The notes beneath the pieces are model-generated. The model saw nothing but the letters and a program-made list of their open reading frames with translations. It made no database searches and had not been told where the DNA came from. From an uncultured Spirochaetaceae bacterium (GTDB taxonomy: Bacteria > Spirochaetota > Spirochaetia > Sphaerochaetales > Sphaerochaetaceae): DNA of 64,000 nucleotides. The stretch lies in assembly GCA_945910645.1 (NCBI GenBank), contig CAMDZB010000001.1, positions 1 to 64,000 of the forward strand, in the 5' to 3' direction. Of this stretch, positions 5,639-47,111 are shown piece after piece. Numbering within the stretch: the stretch's first letter is position 1; each line of letters starts with the position of its first letter. The position numbers were made by a program, and so were the translations under genes.

Positions 5639-8600
5639 TTAGCTCACCTTCGTATAAGTACCATTACCTGTTCCTTTAATATCATAAGACGCATCTGTAC
5701 AGATGAGCCTAATAGTATTAGAATTACCACTTTTCCAATCTGTTTTTGAAATGGCTGACCATTGTGCAAATGTTCCCTTAAAGTTGATTGTCTCTATTCC
5801 CGAGCGTTCAAATAGCCATGACCCAAGATGTGTTAATCCTGGGTAGAGAGTAATCCTCTTTAAGTTTCGGGTATTATTAAATGCACTTCCCCCTATCCAC
5901 GTAAGTGTTGGTGGGAGCTCTATGTACTCAAGCTGGGTATACATAAAGGCGGCATCATCAATTGTTGTAACTCCTTCGCCAATTTGCACATACTTAATAG
6001 GTGTAAGACTTGACGCCGTACCCTTAAACGCATCCGCTCCAATTGTTGTTACTCTTGGAAACTTTGAGGTGGGACCAAAGGTGTATAATACATCAGGGTC
6101 GATGGCACTCTTGTTACCGTTAACTGTGTTTCCATATATGTTTGCGACGGCTTTGTTATTCGCCTCACTCGCCACTTCGATTGCTTTGACGTATACTAAT
6201 TGTTCAATATATGTTGTAGCACCAGTTTCACTATAACCTTTTATCCATGTTGCTGGGATTTTTACGTTAAGATCATAATTAGTTTTTGGTGTGAAAGAAA
6301 AATTATTGGCTGTCCCTTTCAGTTTTAATGTAATTGAGTTAGCCGATTTTGTTATCTCATAGACACAACCGTTTATTGTATATGGCGAAGTTATCTTAGT
6401 CGTGTCAAACTGCAAGCCATAGCCATTCTTTAGCGTAAATGTTACAGTTGGCATAGTCTGTGTTGTATCCAGCTTACCATTTACTATAGGAAGAACCATT
6501 CGATTTGATTCACTTGTGAGTCTTGGATCAACCTTTTCAACTGCCTCATCTAAGGAGCTTACTTGGTATTTGATCCAGGTAATGCGTTTTCGGGTACCGG
6601 CATTCTCTATGTTTGCTTTCATTTTTTCTTCTGCTGGTGCACGCAGAGTAGAAATACTAGTATCAACTCTTGTAAACGTGCCTGTAAACTTAACCGCAAG
6701 TGTAGTATCTGAATAGGAAGTAACTTCAAGCGTGGCATCCTTGAGGTTTGTATCAGTAGGCTTACCCCATTTTTCGTCAGCAAAGAGATTATCACCAACT
6801 GAAATATCCTTGAACTTAGCAAGTGTTGTTGAGTAAATATTAGAAGCAGCTTTCAGAAGTTCAATCGTGAATGTTACAGTGGTAGGCACATCCTGAACTG
6901 CCCTGATATAATCAGCATAGCCTGAGCTGTCTTTATAATGTGCGACAGAGATTTGATAATTTTCCACCCAGACAGCATAGAGGGTTTCTTCAGGCTGCGT
7001 CGGTTTGTAAGTAGTGCCAACATCACCAACATAGCCACCTGCAACAGGTTGTCCATCTGCAGGCTTAACGTCATTTTCTTTAAGGCTCCAGCCAACATGT
7101 GTAAGACCAGGACCGCCTGTGATTGTCGGAAGAGTAATATCGTTTGCTGTCCACTTTGCCTTGGCTGGAATCACGCCTGTGAGTGTGACGTTTTCTATTG
7201 GATCCTTACCGCCTTGATCGTTATACACTTCATACCTGTAATTGTAAGTTGTCTTGTTCTTGACGTTGTCCCAGGTGTTGTCTAGCTTGAGGATTGGGTT
7301 TCTAAGTCTAAGGCTGTTCACCCATGTTGCGCCATTCAAGGAGATGCTTCCACCCATATCCATAAGAAGATAATCACCGTCACCATCAACGATGTTATAA
7401 TAATTGTCCTTGTCTTGTACAGGATATCCCTTCTCATCGGCTTCTGCAACAAGACCCTCATAGAATACTGAACTTGTATCAGCTTTATTTGTGATCCATG
7501 GAGCATTGTCGTTTTCAAAGAGGCTCTTTGAGAGGTAGTAGCCGAGGAACTTTGTTTCGGCTTCTAATGTACCAGTATATGAACTGTCATGCTGTGATTT
7601 TAATGTAACCACATATTTGCTGCTCTCAGGATATGGCATAACCATATCTGTGTTATGAATTAGAGTCTTCTTTGGATCTTCAGTAGTGGCTATTCTATCC
7701 ATGACCATAAGCTTATCGTCAAACACCTGCTCTACAGGATCATAAATATCCCAGCTCCAGCCGCTCGTGGTTGAGTACCTGATGATTGGGAGTCCCTTCG
7801 TTACAACGTTCTCATGATTATATGCATCATCAAATGGGGCACGTGATGCAAGAGGTGGCTCATTACCTTCAAACTTGAGGTTAAAGCCGTCATAAGCGCC
7901 TCTCTCACCCTCCTTGTTTGCATCAAGGAGGAATATATACTCCCTCTGGAGTATCCACTTGCCGTATAGCTTTGTATTAAAGTAGTACTTGCCACCATAC
8001 TCGACAACGGTACTTCCAAAGCTATCATCAGATGGCATGTATGATGCGCTTGATACAGTCGGGGATGAATCGTCATCGTACCCAACCTGACTGCTGTTAT
8101 TAGTCGCAGTCCAGCCTTCTGACGTCCATGAATCAAAAGAAATACCGATTGGGCCTGAATAGTTATCACGATTAAGTACATCTGAGAGCTGATCCTGTGT
8201 AAGCACCTGATTACTATGAGTTTCAGCCAAATGACCTGTTATTGCAGAAGTATCTGGCTTAATATCAGCATACGGAGGATTTGTTGTAATATGAAGCTGA
8301 GGAGATGATGGAAGTCTAAACCCGTTATCACCAATGCCCCAGGATGCCTTGATAGCAATTTCCTCATCACCCTTCCTTGGCGTGTATATACTGCCGTTCT
8401 GATCGAGGAACGTGAAGTCCATGTTCTCATCAAACACTTCGTATTCAACATTATTAATTGTGGTCTTGTACCCTTCAAACTTACGCGTAAGCAGCTGGCT
8501 GTTGACCTTTGTGTAGTAGTCGTCTGACGCGCTAGTAGCGTTAACAGTATGTGAAATTGTAGTGCCATCACGATTAGTGATGGTCATTGTGGCTTCAGTC

Positions 8601-11600
8601 TGGTTGTTATGATTCATTGCAAGGTTGAAGTTAGTCTCAAACTCAATGAGATCCACACGTGATGGAAGCTGTGAGTTACCTGGCTTTTGGGCAGTCTCTG
8701 AGCCGCCATATCGGTTGATGAGTCCTGGATGGTCGCTAAGCGATGCTTCTATATACTTGTTCGTATCGCCTGCGTTAACATTAATCAAGCCGCGTCCCGG
8801 TTCTGTACTTGGAACCTCTCCTACATACCACTTTCCTGTACTCAAACGGTAAGAGAACGTCTTGATGTAATCGCCAGTATAAGTACCATTACTATTAATC
8901 GTTGCTGTAAGCTGTTTATTTGTTCCAATAAGTTCAAGATCAGTTATATCACTAACGCCTTTCTCAATAAATCCGCGGTTGATGTCAAGAGTCATCTTGA
9001 TACTTGTTGTGTCTTCAATCACTGGGTTGAGAGTAAGCTGTTTTGATGTAAGTGTGATCTTGGCATCTTCAGAAAGTGTGGATGCAACCGGATACAAGCC
9101 CTTTGTTGCAAGCGTTTCATAGTTAGCAGTATTAGAATCTATCTCTGCCATATCTTTCCAAGTTGAGGCATTGCCATCTGCTTTCCAGCCATAGAAGTAG
9201 TACTCTTTTTTCGCATCCGGGGCATCATCGGCGGTTAGGAAGCCTTCCTGGAAAATCATTTGACTTTCAAATGTTATTCCACCTATTGGCGCAGGTATTG
9301 CTACCTTTTCCCTTGGTTTAAATATTGGATAGATGTATGTCACCTTAGATGGCGTGAGCTTTTCACCACCACCTTCGCCTGCAATCAGCGCCTTCATGCG
9401 TTTTGTGGCAACATCTGCTTTAAATACACCTTTGTCATCAATCCATGATTCTATAACTTGTGTTTTACCCTCATTTGATGCAGGATCATATGTTGGACTC
9501 TGGCTAAAGTACCTAAACTCCTTATATGGTGCAACACTATAGATAGGATTTGGCGGTTCAATTTTATACGATCCAGTGGCGAAGTAGACTGAGTATCTAC
9601 TTGAAGGTACCTGCATTACGGTAAAGTATGCATCCGAGATAGTTGGGTCTGTGTACCACTTTTCATCCGCTTCTTTATAGTAGAGCGTGATGTTCATGTC
9701 TGATGTCACAAGCGCTGTTGTTGATAACGTTGAGCCATCCTCGTATCCTGTGGTTGAGAGCTTCACGCGGTATATCCTCGTGCTTGACCAGACTGCATAG
9801 AGTGTAACGGTCTTTGTTCCATCAGCTGCTGTTACAACCTTACTCCAGTCTGACGCCCTTTCACCGAGCGTGAATTTATCTGTGAATATCTCTTTTACCG
9901 TTCCTCCGCCTTCAACCTGATACGAGCCGTCTCTGTAGAACGACCATCCGAGGAACTCATAGTCTGTGAGGGTATAGCCTGATGTAAGGAGTACTGTGTC
10001 TGCATTACCCCACTGCGCTGTGGCTGTAGCCTCCCTCTTATCACCTTCATACCATGATGTTGCTAAAAGGTTACCAACATCTGAGATGTAGTCTCTCTTT
10101 GGACTTACAGTTGTGTCACTGTAGCCTAGGAAGCGCCTCTTTACACCTTCTGATTCCTTGTGATTAAGAGGAATTGATGGGGTTGCACCCGTTGCTGAGT
10201 TCAAGTCGTATTTAATCGTAATGTCGCATGTTGGAGCTGTGACTGCGTATTGTCCTACCTTAATAAGTTGAGCATTTGGATTGACAGCAGGATCCGGATC
10301 AATATTATACCAACCCTTACCAACCCAATAATACATCGCAGTTACGTTACTCTTGCTTGTAGCTCCAGTTGAGTCAAGATTGAGCGTATTTATGTGATTT
10401 CTTTCCCATTGAGCGTAAAGTGTGATCTTTCCGTTTTCGCTTGCTTCAAGCTTTTCAATAAGCTTTTGAACAAGAGCAACACTTGGATCAAAGTAGTACG
10501 TAGTACCAGCCTTAAATATATCAGCATCCAATGAATTAGGTGTTAAGCCCCAACCTATAAGTTTGTATCCTGGACGTGTGATGTTGTCTGGCATTTTGAT
10601 ACTCTCTGGTATATCCCACTCTGCTATGGCTGTTTCATCTATTGATGTATCCTTACGTAAGTAATTTATAAGAGTAGCTTTGTCTTCATTCGCATTTATC
10701 AAGCCGTCTTTATCAACAACTAGGAATGGAGCTTGACTTGGGTCTTGTTTGTTCTTTAATGTATATCCTTTAAATGTTGATCTTAGCGCTATTGGATCTT
10801 CACTCCTGACGCCCTCATCGGCTGCATCTCCACTATCAAACTCAAATGTCCAGATCTTCTCAGGAAGAGCTATGCGGTCAACATCGCTCTGCTTATCAGC
10901 TGTGAGGTACCACTTGTCTTCCCCTGTTGCATAGTAGAGTTTATTCTGTAGCGCCTTTGTGGCTCCGTTTGAATTGAGCGTGATGCCCTTAAGTCCAATA
11001 TCTCTCCAGCGTGCATAGAGCGTGATGTACTTTGTCTGATTAACCTCATTCTCTTGAACAAACGGCCTCATGTGATTGTCTGGATTATCAGGATCAGCAT
11101 ACGCAAGATCATAAATCGTCTTTGTATCGCCATCAAATGGGCGGTATGGGTTTGCAACAAGAGGTGCACTCTGTGATGGCGTCTCTGTCCATCCGTCGAA
11201 TGACCATCGATCTGTACTGAGAGACGAACCATTATTAAGATCTTCAGCATTTCCGTTACCATCCGTAACGCGTACTGTGTCCCAAATTGCCTTTACAGTC
11301 CTGTCTGTTGTGATTCCTAATGCTGGAACAGCATATAGTTCCAGATGTTTTGTTCCGCTATCATCAACATATTGTTCTGTTACAAGTGCCTCGTATCCTG
11401 CAAACGACCACTCAAGTGAGCCATTAAGTGTTGCCTCAACTCCTACAACGCGTTCATCTTCAGGAATGCCATATGTAGGATCTGTTGTCCATGTGGTGTT
11501 GTAGTTGATGAGCCACTTCTTCTCAGGAATACGTACATAAGATATTGCATTGCCTTCGCCGTTTGCGTTGCCGTACCACTTCTTTGTCTGTGGTTTGTAG

Positions 11601-14600
11601 TAGATCTCTGTGGTGTGGCTTAGCGATGTTGATCCATTTCCTTCAAGCGTGAGTTTGAATATGCGCTCATCATACCATACGCCGTAGAGTTTTACGTTTC
11701 CAGTACCTGCCCCAACTTGATATAAATCATAATACTTCTCGTATTCTGGAATGAATGCAGCTCCACCCGACGTGATATTATCCTTATCATCCTGATTCAT
11801 ATTATCGCTATCTTCAATACCACCTACCTTTGGCGTCCATCCGATAAAGCGATAGTTCTCTTTTGTCAGTGCAGGAAGCGTGATTGGATCGTTATCCCTC
11901 CAATACACCGCTGCATATATTTCCTTTTGTTTTGGCTCACCTTCAGGAACACTAGTAATGTAATTGCTTGGGAGTTTAGCCTCTGTTGTGCCACCATTTA
12001 CAATTGCAGTCACGCTTGTATCAGGATCACTTGTGCCGTCTTTTACCGGGTAAATACCGCCAAATGTAGACTCTGACGCAATCTGCGTTGGGTTATCAAC
12101 TCCAAGTAGGTTACTCTCAAAGCTGATGTACCAAATCCTCTGTGGAATGATTATTTTCGTTATACTGTTCTTAAGCGATATTATATTGCCATCGGCGTCT
12201 TTCTCAGCATCCTTGTACCAGCCGTCACCTACTCTGTAATAGAGCTCCTCGTATCCCTTACTTGTGGCTGTAGGATCTGCAATCTTAATGATACGAATAG
12301 CGTTCTCTTCCCAGTTGCCGTAAAGAGTAATCTTGTTGTTTACTATGTATTTTGGATCGATTGAACTGATGTCAATAGTAGAACCTTCCCTATATCTCTT
12401 ACTCTCATCAGTTTCGCCCTTTTCAAAGCTCCATCCGAGGAAGTTATAGCCCTTCCTATTTGTTGATGGAACTGTAATTGTATTTGATAATCCGTTTGTC
12501 CATTTAGCCTTCCATTTAGTGCTGTTTTCATCCGTTGGTCTATCTGTTGTAAACTCACCGTTGCTCTGAACGTATTGTACGCTATCTTGAGCGCCATAGT
12601 AGCCTTCGAATGTGAAGATCACCTTTGCTGTGTTCACACTCTCTGCACCTTCAAGGTTCACATCGTATCTTACTTCCCACGACTTCTCAGGCTTACGAAT
12701 TGAGCTTATTGTGCTCTCGTCGTTTATTGTAGCGTGATAGCCGTTTGTCTTTTCCCTATATAATATAGTCTCTTTTGTTGTTCCGTTGTCCGGATCAAGC
12801 TCGATTGTCAAGTACTTTTCGCTCGACCATACGCCTTCAAGCGTGATCTCCTCACCCTTGTTGTTCTCATCAACATAGCCGTATTTATCGTTCCAGGCTG
12901 GGGCAAAGATGTTTGGAAGTACTGTATCTTGACCTGATAGCCTCCATCCTATAAACGTGAAGCCTTCTGCCGTTAATGCTTTCTTGTTCAAGTCTATGCC
13001 ATCAACTGTATCGTCATACATTGCAACTGCCGTTGTGGACTTTGTAACATTATCGTTTTCAATCTCACCCTTCTCGTTGATAAAGAGCGTTGCACCTATC
13101 ATGTATCCCTTGAACTTCCATGTGAGATACTCCTCTGCAAGCTCCTTAAACGACTCGTCTGTTGGGTGATTCGTGACAAAGTTGACCTTTACGCTCCTCT
13201 CTGCAACAATGCCGTCAGATACCATGTTCTGCTTTTGTTCGTCTGTGTACCAAACGCCGTTTGATGGATTCTTATAAAGTACATCCTTGCCGTTTTCGCC
13301 CTTCTTACCCTTGTTGTGATTGAGGGTTACCACTATATCTGCTTGATCTTTCCATCGAGCATAAAGCTTGATGTCCTTCTTTGTTGTTGTGTATTCTCCT
13401 GATATCAATGTGTTAGGATCTTCCTTTGTACTCCAGCCGAGGAATAGGTATAATGGATTGCCTTTATCATCCTTTTCTGCTGAGGTAAGCGATGGAAGAG
13501 CGACAGGTTTATAATCGCCCCAGATTGCGAGAATCTCTGTGTCTGATGAGATCACATAGCCGTCTTGTATCGTACCGTCTTCTTTGATATTAGGCGCAAT
13601 ACTTCCACTTCTTGAACCATACCCCTTGAACTCAGATGGTACGTATATCGTAGTGTTAATGTCCGTTTCTATGTTCTTTCCAGGCTCAAGAGTGATCATC
13701 CTCTCCCTTCGTGGAAGTGGAGACACTTTTGTAAGCTCAGAGCCCTTGACTGTGTAAATAGGGTTTCCGTCTGCATCTGTTCCAACCTCTTCTCTTACGC
13801 CATACCAGCCGTCGTTAACCCTGTAGTATATCTCCTGAGTGAGCTTCGAGTAGTTGGAGTCATTTTGTTCATCCATCGTTGCTGTTGATGCAAGTATAAG
13901 CTTGTATACCTTCTCGTAAGCCCAGTCAAGATACAGCGTGATCTTACCATTCTTAACATCAGACTCTGTGGCTGTGTCTTTGAACGTCCAAGCGTTTTCT
14001 TTGATTACCTCGCCATCAAGCGACTTCTTCCATCCGTTTATGATGTAACCGGGAATCGTGGTAAGATCCACACGTACTGCATCACTATCCTCTGCCCATA
14101 CTGCAACTAGGTTTGTTTCTTTAGTAATAGCCTTTAGAGCTGGATCTATAGCGCCGTTTGCATCTATATATAATGTACCCGTCTCTGCATCCTTATAACC
14201 CATGAATCTCCACTCAACGTCCTTTGGACCAAGTGGGGTGGATGGAAGTTCATTAATTCCATTTCTGTTAAATTCAAGTGAGTATACTTTCTTTGGTAAG
14301 AGAGTTGGTTGAAGACTTGTAATCACCTTTCCGCTCTCGAGTATCTGATGATCCCTCGCTCTTACGTAAAGTGTGTTCTGACTAACGCTCGTTGCTCCCT
14401 CTGCTTTCAGGTAAACCGGGTATACTGTGTTGTCCTGCCATACACTCTCAAATGCAACTTCGCCTCTCGTCTCTGATGATTTGACCATGTATTCATTAAC
14501 GATATCCGATGACGTGTCATCCTGTGCGCTTACCTTCTCCCTCCATCCGATGAACGTGCTATTTTCCCTGTCCTTTAATATTGGGAGTTCAAGTCTCATC

Positions 14601-17353
14601 TCTGTTGGGCTCTGCCATGACGCATCTACCCACTTGTTATTTTCATCTTTTGTAACTGTTGCTCCAGTTACGATCTGACCACTCTTATCTATGTATCCTG
14701 AGTAGCCACTAAATGGATAACTTACTGTGTATCCGCTTGTAATATTCTCATCACTCCACTGCTTCTTGTCTGTTATAACATCGTTTGTTTCAATGCCTTC
14801 AAGCGTTACCTTTACAGTCCTTGTTGGCGCCTTGAAGTCAGCGCTTTTATATAGTGTCTTTACCCATGCGCTTGCGTCGCTATCATATTCATACTTTGTG
14901 TACCAAGAGCCGTCTGCAATGCTGTAGTAAATCTGCCTTGTGGCTCCACTCCAGTTTACTGTTGTATCCTTGCTCTCATCCTTTGCACCAAGGTTTACAA
15001 CATACGTTGTGTTATTCGTCCACGCTCCGTGTAGGTCTATGTCGTTGTTATCAGGAATGAACTCCGAAGGAAGCACTTCAGTTCCGCTCTTTGATTTCTT
15101 CCATCCTACAAAGGCGATCTCGTTGTTGACGTTTCCACCCTCTTCGACATACATGCCACCATTCTCTAGCGTTGGAAGTGTTATTGCACCATCCGTTGTG
15201 TACTTTGAATCTTCTGTGTTAATTGAATACTTAGGTCTCTCAAATGTTGGCACGACTATCATGTCCTTTGAAAGACTTACATCGCCTTTAATCTCACCAT
15301 TTTCATTGACATATTCGCCGTATTCCTTAAATACAAATTCGTACGTTTCGCTCGTCTTGTTATCTCTCATCCTGATATTCTCAAGAGATGGTGTGTATTT
15401 GATAGTCCATACCCTTTTTGGTTTTGCAATTGTAACACCGCCTTCCTGACCCTCAACCTTTAGCGGCGTACTTAAGTTCTGATCTTTATACCACTGCTTC
15501 TTACCGTATGAATACCAGATCTCTGAAACATCGCTTCCTGTCTCACCACCCACGTTCTCTTTCTTAAGTTCAAGCTTGTACTTTCTTGAGTCTCTCCATA
15601 CGCCATAGAGCGTCACGTTGTCTTTTGTTGGCGTGAATCCTGTCTTTCCGTTTAAATAAAGATTAAAGCCTGTTGGTATAACTTCGCCCTCTGTAAAGAC
15701 CTTTCCTGTCTCACTCCAGCCAAGGAATTCAACGCCTTTCCCCTCTTCAGGCCAGGATATCGTATTGTTCATGTAGTACGACTCTTCTATCCACTCTGCA
15801 ACCGCATGGGATGCCTCAGTAAGCGCACTTGCTGTGATGTTTCCACTTGAGTCAATCACTGTATTTGATGTGATACCATCAAGCTTATATCCTGCAAACT
15901 TCTGGCTGTATATGTCGCTCTTCTTTGCTATAGTTGCGCCTTGCCAGTTTGCATTGAAGTTGATCGTCCACTCCTTCTTTGGAACGCTGATTCGTGTGAT
16001 CTGCTTGTCCGTTTCTCCATCCTGTACAAACCAGCTGCTGCCGCGTGAGAGGATCCTTCTGACATCAGCTCCGCTTGTGGCGCCGTTTGGATCAAGCGTG
16101 AGCACTTTTGCATTGCTTGCCACCCACTGAGCATAGAATGTTATGGTCTGACTTGATCCTTCTTCCCAATCTTCTTGCTCGAATATTTTTGGCGAAGCCT
16201 GATCATTTGGATTTGCATAAACCTCAACTGTTCCATCAGCCTTTGTACGTTTCCAGCCTTCAAAATTATAGCCGTCGCGAGTTGGGATGTATATGTAATC
16301 GCCGTTTGTGTCCTTCTGGTTGAAGTTTATCGCCTTTGGCGCGTTGTATGTTGCAACCACCGTAATTTGATTGCCGCTTTCTTTATCAGCCTCAATTTGA
16401 GCAGCTTCAAGCTTCTGCAAATAACCGTTTTCATCTGTGTATGCAACATCACCCTTCTTGTAACCTGCAAATGCCCATGTGAGATCCTCAGTCTTGTTCC
16501 CATCCACATTTGGAAGAGTGCCACCAAACGTGCTAAATATTATGGTCTGCCTACGAGGAGTGTATTCAATTTTGTTCTTGATATTGCTGTTGAGCTCTTC
16601 TGTTTCCCTCCAGGTGGCGTCTTGGTGGATGTAGTATGCAATGTTTCCTGTGGGGGCACCTTCGTATGCTTTGAACATCACAGTTGTTGCTTCAGAGCTT
16701 ACTGAATGCACAAGAAGATACGTCACCTCGTCTGTCAACATAACTTGTATAAGGTTATCCGAGCCCATCTCTTGACGTATGACTTTCGGATCTGTAGATT
16801 CGTATTTGTTTTCACCTAGTTTCTTAACAACTTCGTATGAGCTAAATACTCTACCAGTTTCCATAGTTGGAACAGACAGTTTACCTACGTATGAAGCCTC
16901 TTTCCATATTGCATCATAAGTGCTTGCTGTTGGCGCTTTTTTTGTAAATGTTCCGTCTTCCCTTATTATGTCTCCATATCCGCTGAATGTCCTTGATGCG
17001 TCTGTAGTACCGGCTGTTGCTCCTCCTTTTTCTTGCCCGTTTGAGGTGATTGCATAATCGTCTTCTTTGTATGTACCGTCATCTTTTTTAGTAACCTTTA
17101 CGACGCTGTACTTCCACTCAGGAATCTGAATCTTGTCGATTCTGACTGTACATGAGGCATCCTCATACCACTTTCCATCCTGGTAGTAGACCTTCATGGT
17201 GCCTGGGTTCTTCACTCCTCCTGCATTAAGCGTCACCTCATGCGTCTCTTGAAGCGCGCTAGCTTTACACGAGACTGTAAAGCCTAGGCTTGCAATAACA
17301 AGGATTGCTGCTGCAACTGTTGCTTTTAATGCTTTGCTTTTGAAGTTTCTCAT
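5639..17353 (-). CDS. Giant (3904 aa) surface/exported protein: tandem InlB B-repeat/Flg_new-like modules with C-terminal BspA-like LRR
   Basis: Uninterrupted ORF; signal peptide MRNFKSKALKATVAAAILVIASLGFTVSC; recurring F.GW...LYA.W and YY....WY motifs; C-term VTTIGADAFKG...YVQIGEGVTTIDDAAF. Confidence 0.9.
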   Translation of the reverse strand: MRNFKSKALKATVAAAILVIASLGFTVSCKASALQETHEVTLNAGGVKNPGTMKVYYQDGKWYEDASCTVRIDKIQIPEWKYSVVKVTKKDDGTYKEDDYAITSNGQEKGGATAGTTDASRTFSGYGDIIREDGTFTKKAPTASTYDAIWKEASYVGKLSVPTMETGRVFSSYEVVKKLGENKYESTDPKVIRQEMGSDNLIQVMLTDEVTYLLVHSVSSEATTVMFKAYEGAPTGNIAYYIHQDATWRETEELNSNIKNKIEYTPRRQTIIFSTFGGTLPNVDGNKTEDLTWAFAGYKKGDVAYTDENGYLQKLEAAQIEADKESGNQITVVATYNAPKAINFNQKDTNGDYIYIPTRDGYNFEGWKRTKADGTVEVYANPNDQASPKIFEQEDWEEGSSQTITFYAQWVASNAKVLTLDPNGATSGADVRRILSRGSSWFVQDGETDKQITRISVPKKEWTINFNANWQGATIAKKSDIYSQKFAGYKLDGITSNTVIDSSGNITASALTEASHAVAEWIEESYYMNNTISWPEEGKGVEFLGWSETGKVFTEGEVIPTGFNLYLNGKTGFTPTKDNVTLYGVWRDSRKYKLELKKENVGGETGSDVSEIWYSYGKKQWYKDQNLSTPLKVEGQEGGVTIAKPKRVWTIKYTPSLENIRMRDNKTSETYEFVFKEYGEYVNENGEIKGDVSLSKDMIVVPTFERPKYSINTEDSKYTTDGAITLPTLENGGMYVEEGGNVNNEIAFVGWKKSKSGTEVLPSEFIPDNNDIDLHGAWTNNTTYVVNLGAKDESKDTTVNWSGATRQIYYSIADGSWYTKYEYDSDASAWVKTLYKSADFKAPTRTVKVTLEGIETNDVITDKKQWSDENITSGYTVSYPFSGYSGYIDKSGQIVTGATVTKDENNKWVDASWQSPTEMRLELPILKDRENSTFIGWREKVSAQDDTSSDIVNEYMVKSSETRGEVAFESVWQDNTVYPVYLKAEGATSVSQNTLYVRARDHQILESGKVITSLQPTLLPKKVYSLEFNRNGINELPSTPLGPKDVEWRFMGYKDAETGTLYIDANGAIDPALKAITKETNLVAVWAEDSDAVRVDLTTIPGYIINGWKKSLDGEVIKENAWTFKDTATESDVKNGKITLYLDWAYEKVYKLILASTATMDEQNDSNYSKLTQEIYYRVNDGWYGVREEVGTDADGNPIYTVKGSELTKVSPLPRRERMITLEPGKNIETDINTTIYVPSEFKGYGSRSGSIAPNIKEDGTIQDGYVISSDTEILAIWGDYKPVALPSLTSAEKDDKGNPLYLFLGWSTKEDPNTLISGEYTTTKKDIKLYARWKDQADIVVTLNHNKGKKGENGKDVLYKNPSNGVWYTDEQKQNMVSDGIVAERSVKVNFVTNHPTDESFKELAEEYLTWKFKGYMIGATLFINEKGEIENDNVTKSTTAVAMYDDTVDGIDLNKKALTAEGFTFIGWRLSGQDTVLPNIFAPAWNDKYGYVDENNKGEEITLEGVWSSEKYLTIELDPDNGTTKETILYREKTNGYHATINDESTISSIRKPEKSWEVRYDVNLEGAESVNTAKVIFTFEGYYGAQDSVQYVQSNGEFTTDRPTDENSTKWKAKWTNGLSNTITVPSTNRKGYNFLGWSFEKGETDESKRYREGSTIDISSIDPKYIVNNKITLYGNWEENAIRIIKIADPTATSKGYEELYYRVGDGWYKDAEKDADGNIISLKNSITKIIIPQRIWYISFESNLLGVDNPTQIASESTFGGIYPVKDGTSDPDTSVTAIVNGGTTEAKLPSNYITSVPEGEPKQKEIYAAVYWRDNDPITLPALTKENYRFIGWTPKVGGIEDSDNMNQDDKDNITSGGAAFIPEYEKYYDLYQVGAGTGNVKLYGVWYDERIFKLTLEGNGSTSLSHTTEIYYKPQTKKWYGNANGEGNAISYVRIPEKKWLINYNTTWTTDPTYGIPEDERVVGVEATLNGSLEWSFAGYEALVTEQYVDDSGTKHLELYAVPALGITTDRTVKAIWDTVRVTDGNGNAEDLNNGSSLSTDRWSFDGWTETPSQSAPLVANPYRPFDGDTKTIYDLAYADPDNPDNHMRPFVQENEVNQTKYITLYARWRDIGLKGITLNSNGATKALQNKLYYATGEDKWYLTADKQSDVDRIALPEKIWTFEFDSGDAADEGVRSEDPIALRSTFKGYTLKNKQDPSQAPFLVVDKDGLINANEDKATLINYLRKDTSIDETAIAEWDIPESIKMPDNITRPGYKLIGWGLTPNSLDADIFKAGTTYYFDPSVALVQKLIEKLEASENGKITLYAQWERNHINTLNLDSTGATSKSNVTAMYYWVGKGWYNIDPDPAVNPNAQLIKVGQYAVTAPTCDITIKYDLNSATGATPSIPLNHKESEGVKRRFLGYSDTTVSPKRDYISDVGNLLATSWYEGDKREATATAQWGNADTVLLTSGYTLTDYEFLGWSFYRDGSYQVEGGGTVKEIFTDKFTLGERASDWSKVVTAADGTKTVTLYAVWSSTRIYRVKLSTTGYEDGSTLSTTALVTSDMNITLYYKEADEKWYTDPTISDAYFTVMQVPSSRYSVYFATGSYKIEPPNPIYSVAPYKEFRYFSQSPTYDPASNEGKTQVIESWIDDKGVFKADVATKRMKALIAGEGGGEKLTPSKVTYIYPIFKPREKVAIPAPIGGITFESQMIFQEGFLTADDAPDAKKEYYFYGWKADGNASTWKDMAEIDSNTANYETLATKGLYPVASTLSEDAKITLTSKQLTLNPVIEDTTSIKMTLDINRGFIEKGVSDITDLELIGTNKQLTATINSNGTYTGDYIKTFSYRLSTGKWYVGEVPSTEPGRGLINVNAGDTNKYIEASLSDHPGLINRYGGSETAQKPGNSQLPSRVDLIEFETNFNLAMNHNNQTEATMTITNRDGTTISHTVNATSASDDYYTKVNSQLLTRKFEGYKTTINNVEYEVFDENMDFTFLDQNGSIYTPRKGDEEIAIKASWGIGDNGFRLPSSPQLHITTNPPYADIKPDTSAITGHLAETHSNQVLTQDQLSDVLNRDNYSGPIGISFDSWTSEGWTATNNSSQVGYDDDSSPTVSSASYMPSDDSFGSTVVEYGGKYYFNTKLYGKWILQREYIFLLDANKEGERGAYDGFNLKFEGNEPPLASRAPFDDAYNHENVVTKGLPIIRYSTTSGWSWDIYDPVEQVFDDKLMVMDRIATTEDPKKTLIHNTDMVMPYPESSKYVVTLKSQHDSSYTGTLEAETKFLGYYLSKSLFENDNAPWITNKADTSSVFYEGLVAEADEKGYPVQDKDNYYNIVDGDGDYLLMDMGGSISLNGATWVNSLRLRNPILKLDNTWDNVKNKTTYNYRYEVYNDQGGKDPIENVTLTGVIPAKAKWTANDITLPTITGGPGLTHVGWSLKENDVKPADGQPVAGGYVGDVGTTYKPTQPEETLYAVWVENYQISVAHYKDSSGYADYIRAVQDVPTTVTFTIELLKAASNIYSTTLAKFKDISVGDNLFADEKWGKPTDTNLKDATLEVTSYSDTTLAVKFTGTFTRVDTSISTLRAPAEEKMKANIENAGTRKRITWIKYQVSSLDEAVEKVDPRLTSESNRMVLPIVNGKLDTTQTMPTVTFTLKNGYGLQFDTTKITSPYTINGCVYEITKSANSITLKLKGTANNFSFTPKTNYDLNVKIPATWIKGYSETGATTYIEQLVYVKAIEVASEANNKAVANIYGNTVNGNKSAIDPDVLYTFGPTSKFPRVTTIGADAFKGTASSLTPIKYVQIGEGVTTIDDAAFMYTQLEYIELPPTLTWIGGSAFNNTRNLKRITLYPGLTHLGSWLFERSGIETINFKGTFAQWSAISKTDWKSGNSNTIRLICTDASYDIKGTGNGTYTKVS
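5640..6090 (-). other. C-terminal BspA/LRR_5-like domain of the giant protein
   Basis: TIGADAFKG / IGEGVTTIDDAAFMYTQLEYIELPPTLTWIGGSAFNNTRNLKRITLYPGLTHLGSWLFERSGIETINFKG. Confidence 0.8.
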
Positions 17354-44736: not shown

Positions 44737-46167
44737 ATGCAACACTTTCTTAAGAAATTATCCGTAACAGCTATTTTATCAACTACTCTACTCACAAACG
44801 CCTTTGGATTTGGCACGGCAAGAAGGGCTTTTACTGCCACGTCCCTTGTGGACAAAAGCGAGGATCCAATCGCAATCACAATGGATAATCTTGAGAACAT
44901 GTACCGCTTTGCAGAGCGTAACTACCTTTACGACATTGACACAGACAAGGTATACGAGGCAATGGCTGGGGCAATGCTTGATGCATTCGGCGATGAATGG
45001 ACTATGTTTATTCCATCAGAAGAGAGCACATCGTATCGCAACCACAGAATCGGTAACTACAGCGGAATTGGCATCTACATGACAAAGCTATCCCCAAATA
45101 TGCAGGTTGAGGGTGATCCATCCACAATGTACATCACTATCACAAGCTGTTTCTCAGGAGGGCCTGCAGAACGCGCAGGACTGAGAAGCAAGGACATGAT
45201 CACTCACATAAACGGCGAGAGCGTGATAAATAAAAATGCATTAGAATGCGCAGAACTACTAAAAGGTGAAACCGGATCCATACTCTCACTTACGATCCTT
45301 AGAGGTTCAAAAACATTCGACATCGACATCGAGCGTGAAATAGTAAATGTACCTACAGCTCAAAGCACCGTGCTTGATGACCACATTGGATACATTAAAA
45401 TCAGCGAGTTCTCATCAATCACAGCCACACAGGTTAAGGAAAAGCTCGCTCCTCTTTCACGCATGAGGGATCTAAAAGCGCTGATCATCGACCTTAGAAA
45501 CAACGGAGGCGGAGACGTTAAAGCAAGCGTCGATATTGCAGACTATCTCATCCCTGGGCACAAAGTAATCGTATCTGCAGTCGGCAAGAACTCTAGCCGT
45601 AACGAGACACAGATGACCAACGAAAAGAGCGAAAAGTTCAACACAGACTGCCCTATCATAGTGCTGATCAACTCAGGAACCGCATCGGCATCCGAAATAC
45701 TCTCTGGAGCCCTCCAGGACAACAAAAGAGCCATAATTATGGGCGAAAAGAGCTTTGGAAAGGGTGTAATGCAGGTATCCGCTCCATTTGGCAACGGCTA
45801 TGTAAATGTGACGTCTCAGGAATACAAGACGCCAAACGGCAACAAAGTGAACAAGGTTGGAATCACTCCTGATGTTGTTGTTAAGAATCGAACTGTTGAG
45901 AACGAAAATGTTGATGAACTCAACCGCATAGCAAACAATAAAGTTGCAGAAAAGTACGTAGACCTACACAAGGAATTTACGGATAAAAACATCGAAAACT
46001 TTGTAAAAGCAAATAAATTTGAATATGCAATAAGCGATTATCTACTCTCAATCATCGTGCTAAACGAGTACCTCTCCAGGATGGACAGTACAGACAGGCC
46101 TGTGGCATTTCCGAAGTACGACAATGTGTTATCAGAAGCAATTGCTTATATACAAAAGAATTATTAA
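44737..46167 (+). CDS. S41 (C-terminal processing) peptidase with PDZ domain
   Basis: Signal peptide; PDZ GGPAERAGLRSKDMITHING; IDLRNNGGGD, GTASASEILSGALQDNKRA and GEKSFGKGVMQ. Confidence 0.9.
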   Translation: MQHFLKKLSVTAILSTTLLTNAFGFGTARRAFTATSLVDKSEDPIAITMDNLENMYRFAERNYLYDIDTDKVYEAMAGAMLDAFGDEWTMFIPSEESTSYRNHRIGNYSGIGIYMTKLSPNMQVEGDPSTMYITITSCFSGGPAERAGLRSKDMITHINGESVINKNALECAELLKGETGSILSLTILRGSKTFDIDIEREIVNVPTAQSTVLDDHIGYIKISEFSSITATQVKEKLAPLSRMRDLKALIIDLRNNGGGDVKASVDIADYLIPGHKVIVSAVGKNSSRNETQMTNEKSEKFNTDCPIIVLINSGTASASEILSGALQDNKRAIIMGEKSFGKGVMQVSAPFGNGYVNVTSQEYKTPNGNKVNKVGITPDVVVKNRTVENENVDELNRIANNKVAEKYVDLHKEFTDKNIENFVKANKFEYAISDYLLSIIVLNEYLSRMDSTDRPVAFPKYDNVLSEAIAYIQKNY

Positions 46168-46451
46168 GAGTTATATACAGCTGTGGATAACTTTTAATAT
46201 TTTTGCAATAGAAACAACAAAAACTAACATAAAAGTTATATAACTTTTTACATAAAACATATCGGTTTTATTAACGGTTTGAAAATCGCCGTAAATCTTT
46301 GAAATTCAACAACTTAGAGAGGTTAAAAACGAGTGAATTTTGTCGCGTTTTTAACAGTTTTAAAAATCAGTATTTTGGAATTAAAAAAGGTTATCCACAA
46401 ACCTGTGGATAACCTGTGGATAAATCTGTGTATAAAGTGTTTATAAGATGT
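46168..46451. promoter_or_regulatory. DnaA-box cluster in AT-rich intergenic region (candidate oriC or DnaA-regulatory locus)
   Basis: TTATCCACA/TGTGGATAA at 46182-46190, 46391-46399, 46404-46412 and 46415-46423; TGTGTATAA 46427-46435; weak TGTTTATAA 46438-46446; palindrome 46231-46248. Confidence 0.6.
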
Positions 46452-47111
46452 TTATTTACGCTTTTCCTCAAGAATTATCGCCTTAGCTCCAGCCTGACCG
46501 CATCCTAACCTTGATGCTCCTGCCGATAGCATTGCATTGGCGTCTTTAAGCGTTTTAATACCACCCGATGCCTTAACTTCTACACCCTTACGGACAGTCT
46601 CTCTCATAAGTGCAACGTCTTCTACTTTCGCCCCACCTGTACTAAAGCCAGTGGAGGTCTTTACAAAGTCTGCACCTGCTGATTCCGCAAGCTGACAAGC
46701 AGTTACTTTTTCTGCATCTGTGAGTAGGCATGTTTCGATAATCACTTTGAGGATCTTGTCCCCTATTGCCTTCTTAACGGCGGCAATATCACGGCGTACA
46801 ACTGCATTTTGCTTGTCTTTAACTGCTGCGATGTTGATTACCATGTCGATTTCATCAGCGCCTTTACTCACAGCCCACTTTGCTTCTTTTGCCTTAATAC
46901 TGTAGTGCATAGCCCCAAGTGGAAATCCCACAACTGAACAGACTTTGACCTTTGAGTCCTTTAATAAGTCGTAGCATTTTGGAACATTTACACTGTTAAC
47001 GCAAACAGAAGCACAGCCGAATTCTTCTGCTTCTTTACACAAAGTCTCTATTTCTTTTGAAGTGGCATCTGCCTTCAAAAGCGTATAGTCTATATATTTT
47101 GCTATCCCCAA
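46452..47111 (-). CDS. deoC: Deoxyribose-phosphate aldolase
   Basis: DYTLLKADAT, VVGFPLGAM, KVIIETCLL and FVKTSTGF motifs. Confidence 0.95.
   Translation of the reverse strand: MGIAKYIDYTLLKADATSKEIETLCKEAEEFGCASVCVNSVNVPKCYDLLKDSKVKVCSVVGFPLGAMHYSIKAKEAKWAVSKGADEIDMVINIAAVKDKQNAVVRRDIAAVKKAIGDKILKVIIETCLLTDAEKVTACQLAESAGADFVKTSTGFSTGGAKVEDVALMRETVRKGVEVKASGGIKTLKDANAMLSAGASRLGCGQAGAKAIILEEKRK

Follow-up and report, generated by a model that had tools for sequence, protein, structure and literature searches.

Here we report a compact cluster of DnaA boxes in a 284-bp intergenic gap of an uncultured Spirochaetaceae genome, analysed within a window that comprises the first 64,000 nucleotides of a 153-kb contig. 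We estimate at about 0.62 the probability that this gap is a conserved, cis-acting DnaA-binding locus separate from the origin, comparable to datA of E. coli or to the DnaA-box clusters of B. subtilis and acting by titration or inactivation of DnaA. The cluster, its conservation, its gene neighbourhood, the covariation of its box spelling with that of oriC and its distance from the origin are computational observations. To our knowledge, little is established about how bacteria of the spirochaete type confine replication to one round per cycle, and a search of the open-licence literature by title and abstract turned up no DnaA site for replication control described outside oriC in these organisms.

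DnaA boxes between convergent genes

The gap separates the 3' ends of a ctpA-like gene, which ends at 46167, and of deoC, which ends at 46452 (Table 1). Because these genes converge, the gap is not a promoter region; a promoter role was ruled out on this ground, and the placement fits that of a site. Four perfect TTATCCACA boxes lie in the gap, as the sequence-only reading had stated, although that reading had missed both the convergent gene context and the terminator hairpin described below. The whole genome (1.15 Mb, 33 contigs) contains 18 such boxes, 4 of them within these 284 bp, which is far above chance: under a Poisson model the probability of at least three perfect boxes per 284-bp window is ∼1e-8, and of at least four ∼2e-11, with ∼4,000 windows in the genome. 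Several DnaA boxes thus occur above chance in a short stretch of non-coding DNA away from oriC, as in other extra-oriC clusters, and the combination of a box cluster with an AT-rich region, which is also a feature of oriC, is present. The boxes form two lobes, one of a single box and one an array, 222-233 bp apart around a spacer that is AT-rich, with 25% GC against 41% for the whole contig.

Table 1. Features of the gap and its flanking genes (positions in the window)
Feature	Position	Strand	Remarks
Whole element	46168..46451	.	Convergent intergenic gap, ctpA-like S41 peptidase gene / deoC; basis: ORFs, Pfam, conservation in G001
Lobe A: perfect DnaA box TTATCCACA	46182..46190	-	Kept in G001
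AT-rich spacer between lobes	46191..46390	.	25% GC; relatives' spacers similarly AT-rich
Lobe B: inverted perfect DnaA box	46391..46399	+	13 bp ahead of head-to-tail pair
Lobe B: perfect DnaA box, first of head-to-tail pair	46404..46412	-	
Lobe B: other perfect DnaA box of this pair	46415..46423	-	11-bp step
Lobe B: TTATACACA, third ladder step	46427..46435	-	12-bp step; 1 mismatch
Possible very weak fourth step TTATAAACA	46438..46446	-	2 mismatches; P ∼0.01 by shuffling
18-bp palindrome AAAAGTTATATAACTTTT	46231..46248	.	Exact; absent from G001
ctpA-like S41 peptidase with PDZ domain	44737..46167	+	Marker of conserved neighbourhood
deoC (deoxyribose-phosphate aldolase)	46452..47111	-	
Intrinsic terminator of deoC	46382..46415	-	12-bp stem, 4-nt loop, T6; MFE -19.9, z -3.6

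With steps of 11 and 12 bp, boxes in head-to-tail order put DnaA protomers on a single face of the helix, as at oriC arrays. A ladder of five such steps with decreasing affinity had been proposed for lobe B, and mismatches to the box do rise along it (0, 0, 1, 2 and 4). The first three steps stand and the fourth is marginal. The fifth is at chance level (P ∼0.24), overlaps the stop codon of deoC and was rejected. Helical phasing likewise holds for the first steps of 11 and 12 bp; the register recurs in the sister species G001 and in other genomes of the family, a degenerate third step occurring in identical register in G001 and in the genomes of genus g16. The 13/11 geometry of lobe B recurs in G067 and G111 (loci L159 and L178). 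Both the 18-bp palindrome and a 10-bp inverted repeat (46322-46331/46346-46355) picked out earlier are exact, but neither is kept in G001, whereas the boxes are, and we discarded both as conserved parts. A check of the gap against Rfam for an RNA gene matched no family.

The boxes at 46391 and 46404 are not independent of each other, since both are arms of a single terminator hairpin, GGTTATCCACA-AACC-TGTGGATAACC. Its stem-loop followed by a U-run at the 3' end of deoC is the arrangement of an intrinsic terminator, and it accounts for two boxes only. The lobe A box also falls within a weak hairpin downstream of ctpA. An equivalent inverted box pair stands ahead of an A-run in G001 as well; given this pair and the stem built from DnaA boxes, box and terminator share sequence in the window genus. 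The closest named matches to deoC are Spirochaetales/Sphaerochaeta records at ∼64% identity, and a deoC-based scan of named genomes retrieved no locus with the two-lobed pattern.

Elsewhere in the window, a 3,904-aa open reading frame at 5639-17353 on the minus strand contains BspA-type leucine-rich and Listeria-Bacteroides repeats and probably encodes a giant surface protein. Immediately ahead of two chromate-transporter genes (889-2069), a 22-bp tandem array at 724-879 (unit TTTATCAACAACATTTGACAAA, ∼7 copies) repeats TTATCAACA, a 9-mer present three times in the genome's own oriC.

Position relative to the chromosomal origin

The gap is not the chromosomal oriC, which had been the first suggestion of the sequence-only reading. 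The dnaA gene (C1:94786-96168), with dnaN and recF adjoining, lies 48 kb away, with xerC- and parB-like genes (named by eye) on its opposite side, and the dnaA-dnaN region has its own cluster of six or seven imperfect boxes. The GC-skew check that had been proposed points away from the gap: along the 153-kb contig, cumulative skew is lowest at 94.5 kb, inside the dnaA-dnaN region, and shows no inflection at 46 kb. An oriC in the gap was rejected on the skew and on the position of dnaA. Skew is -0.057 to the left of the element, -0.081 between the element and dnaA, and +0.072 past dnaA. Coding orientation tracks the skew along the contig, and neither switches at 46 kb, in agreement with the lack of a coding-strand switch that had already been conceded. 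In four relatives (G070, G004, G023 and G064) skew is lowest at dnaA or within ∼10 kb of it, and the element is 15-30 kb from dnaA. In the complete genomes G162 and G164 the sign of the skew changes close to dnaA and not at the element, which is 146 and 113 kb off, respectively.

The element is nevertheless origin-proximal, as datA is, its 48 kb from dnaA amounting to 4% of the 1.15-Mb genome. Among the complete genomes read with a murA-linked element the distance to dnaA is ∼0.4-4% of the chromosome; it ranges from ∼9 to 150 kb or more, and because it varies in this way a role in precise timing is not implied. Two unusually rich oriC arrays lie near dnaA in genus g18, one of 11 boxes in less than 300 bp (G019 locus L193, 9832-10108) and one of seven tandem box pairs in ∼250 bp (G050:C291:3423-3675).

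Conservation of the element in the family and class

The sequence-only reading had named conservation of the box ladder between relatives as a check, and the result is favourable. In G001, whose ctpA is 50% identical, the cluster is kept in the ctpA/deoC gap: lobe A has two boxes, lobe B has an inverted pair, and a degenerate ladder follows the 11/12-bp register, while the remainder of the gap has diverged. Across the family, ∼17 of the genomes read have a cluster of at least three boxes beside murA, rsmE, ctpA or lgt. Most of these clusters lie on the dnaN side of dnaA at a distance of 9-16 kb, against 30 kb in G023 and 48 kb in the window; clusters of this size appeared in 0 of 120 Markov-simulated counterparts of these regions. 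The lobes of 14 loci in genus g16, TGTGGAAAACYTGTGGAAAA, are near-invariant and mostly 230 bp apart within an aligned region of 54% mean pairwise identity and AT-rich middle; on this comparison the box lobes are a phylogenetic footprint. The element in genus g8 (L206 and L210), beside rsmE/ctpA, is spelled TTATGCACA and TTTTACACA, and the dnaA-dnaN gap there is almost devoid of canonical boxes, which hints that DnaA-box specificity has shifted in this genus.

In class and family alike, two groups of boxes flank an AT-rich spacer at a separation of ∼203-238 bp, within a ctpA-rsmE-(pspA)-element-murA block that spans ∼14 families, its gene names checked by NCBIfam on representatives. A search for TGTGGAWAA-N210-240-TGTGGAWAA was positive in 68 of the 198 class genomes, against 4 matches for a reversed control pattern. 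Gaps of 245-275 bp were found in 21 of the 198, and control gaps of 175-205 bp in 66, partly from families with 203-214 bp spacing; since this shorter range is also rich in matches, lobe spacing is preferred within ∼200-240 bp rather than unique to it. Spacings of 215-218 fall between two search patterns and are therefore outside these counts. The strict pattern is present in about a third of class genomes and lacking in many others, Borrelia-like small genomes included, and the two-lobed spacing is shared by certain oriC regions and certain unlinked sites. When gene context was read for 40 loci, picked by hand from the match lists, 3 were oriC, and 20 of the other 37 lay within ∼8 kb of murA, rsmE, ctpA or pspA; murA alone would be expected in <1% of random 20-kb stretches. 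The boxes face the same way relative to murA in all 17 class loci where murA was in view, and in every family locus but one (G061). Relative to the replication fork their orientation varies, G162 and G164 being opposite to the window. Vertical descent of one locus predicts such a combination. In family f26 (G163, G223, G233 and G243; L256-L259) a two-lobed pair with 224-245 bp spacing, in G163 330 kb from dnaA, occurs in a different gene context and is possibly a second or relocated copy.

Helical phasing of the lobes with respect to each other is suggestive only. Its probability by chance was <0.0002 in a hand-picked genus set and ∼0.02-0.03 over all tested periods in a context-defined set (≤0.0008 at 10.5 bp), but ∼0.10 when all matches were taken unselected, and strict one-turn quantisation of the spacing was rejected on the latter value.

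The spelling of the boxes connects the element to the initiator. Position 3 is A or T (TTATCCACA or TTTTCCACA) and covaries between each element and the oriC of the same genome, with a Spearman coefficient of 0.92 across 14 genomes and 0.89 across 9 genera (P 0.001), the element and oriC intervals having been delimited by hand. A binder common to both sites is the simplest cause of this covariation, and oriC is known to be read by DnaA; we infer that DnaA binds the element boxes. The DnaA-binding, regulatory half of the sequence-only reading thus gains support from the spelling covariation and the conservation of the boxes in sister species, family and class. The only Bac_DnaA match in the assembly (96% complete) is DnaA itself, so that no Hda was found, nor was YabA. 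The apparent absence of these two brakes, the best known of those acting in trans, leaves room for cis-acting control.

Candidate roles of the locus

It is very unlikely that the element is just an intrinsic terminator working in both directions for the convergent genes, with an incidental match to TTATCCACA. The 12-bp hairpin followed by T6 serves deoC, lobe A can fold too, and G001 has a like inverted pair ahead of its A-run. However, a terminator needs complementarity and not this particular 9-mer, the third and fourth boxes lie outside the hairpin, G004, G070 and G023 keep head-to-tail boxes that have no hairpin partner, and neither the two lobes ∼200-240 bp apart nor the covariation with oriC boxes would be explained. 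An origin, or a second active origin, is more improbable still: an AT-rich spacer between DnaA boxes and the similar two-lobed pattern at some class oriC regions would suit one, but skew minimum and strand switch coincide with dnaA-dnaN, which carries its own boxes, as they do in six relatives. We give equally little credence to a role in the transcription of a neighbouring gene under DnaA control. At some loci DnaA does act as a transcription factor (PMC4447404), but the element sits between convergent 3' ends in its own genus and in murA/rsmE-flanked relatives, and stays in place while its neighbours vary (deoC, murA, a Fur-like gene, pspA).

More weight is due to a DARS-like site for DnaA reactivation, or a site for chromosome organisation or segregation, in place of a negative regulator, although this too is unlikely. 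The DARS loci of E. coli are short arrays of clustered DnaA boxes outside oriC (PMC4585315) that act in cis, and the mixture of inverted and direct boxes and the conserved synteny in the origin region would be compatible with such a function. Unlike the mostly origin-proximal element, DARS1 and DARS2 are far from oriC, at relative distances of 0.33 and 0.21 (PMC5010248). DARS2 requires IHF and Fis, and DARS activity consists in nucleotide exchange on ADP-DnaA. Sequence does not distinguish between titration, DDAH-like inactivation, DARS-like reactivation and architectural roles; a negative, DnaA-consuming role seems the most likely.

Deletion of datA leads to over-initiation, and its copy number matters (PMC5295017, PMC5010248, PMC4585315). 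Like the element, datA is a non-coding multi-box cluster outside yet near oriC in which site spacing is important (PMC4585315, PMC5010248); unlike it, datA has five boxes and an IHF site over ∼1 kb rather than two lobes 203-238 bp apart. The IHF site of datA lies between particular DnaA boxes and is needed for its function, which is to promote hydrolysis of DnaA-ATP (DDAH). The likeness is one of layout between different phyla, and no sequence homology is claimed. B. subtilis has six DnaA-box clusters outside oriC, removal of all six causing early initiation (PMC5295017); these are redundant, whereas here a single dominant cluster keeps to one two-lobed layout and is syntenic with murA across the class. 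Bipartite origins of the B. subtilis type also have two groups of boxes and can loop (PMC5295017), but dnaA does not lie between the lobes of the element and GC skew does not switch there.

For a DnaA-consuming locus, DnaA molecules would line up side by side on the 11-12-bp ladder and form an oligomer, and the two lobes might be joined in a looped complex permitted by the AT-rich, presumably flexible spacer. Being close to oriC, the site would double soon after initiation and could then take up DnaA or promote its inactivation, which, with the negative sign supposed here, would damp re-initiation. A bolder version, which we put forward tentatively and regard as doubtful, is a class-wide, vertically inherited 'decoy origin' whose lobes, ∼20-22 helical turns apart, build a DnaA complex that is looped and resembles an origin, and that ties up or inactivates DnaA but does not start replication. 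It would have stayed locked beside murA throughout the history of the class and serve as a main brake on initiation in genomes that lack Hda or YabA.

A conserved, precisely placed cis element that shares its gene neighbourhood across many families makes the control of initiation in spirochaete-type bacteria testable. If the datA-like reading is true, control of this kind arose or persisted well beyond the proteobacteria and firmicutes.
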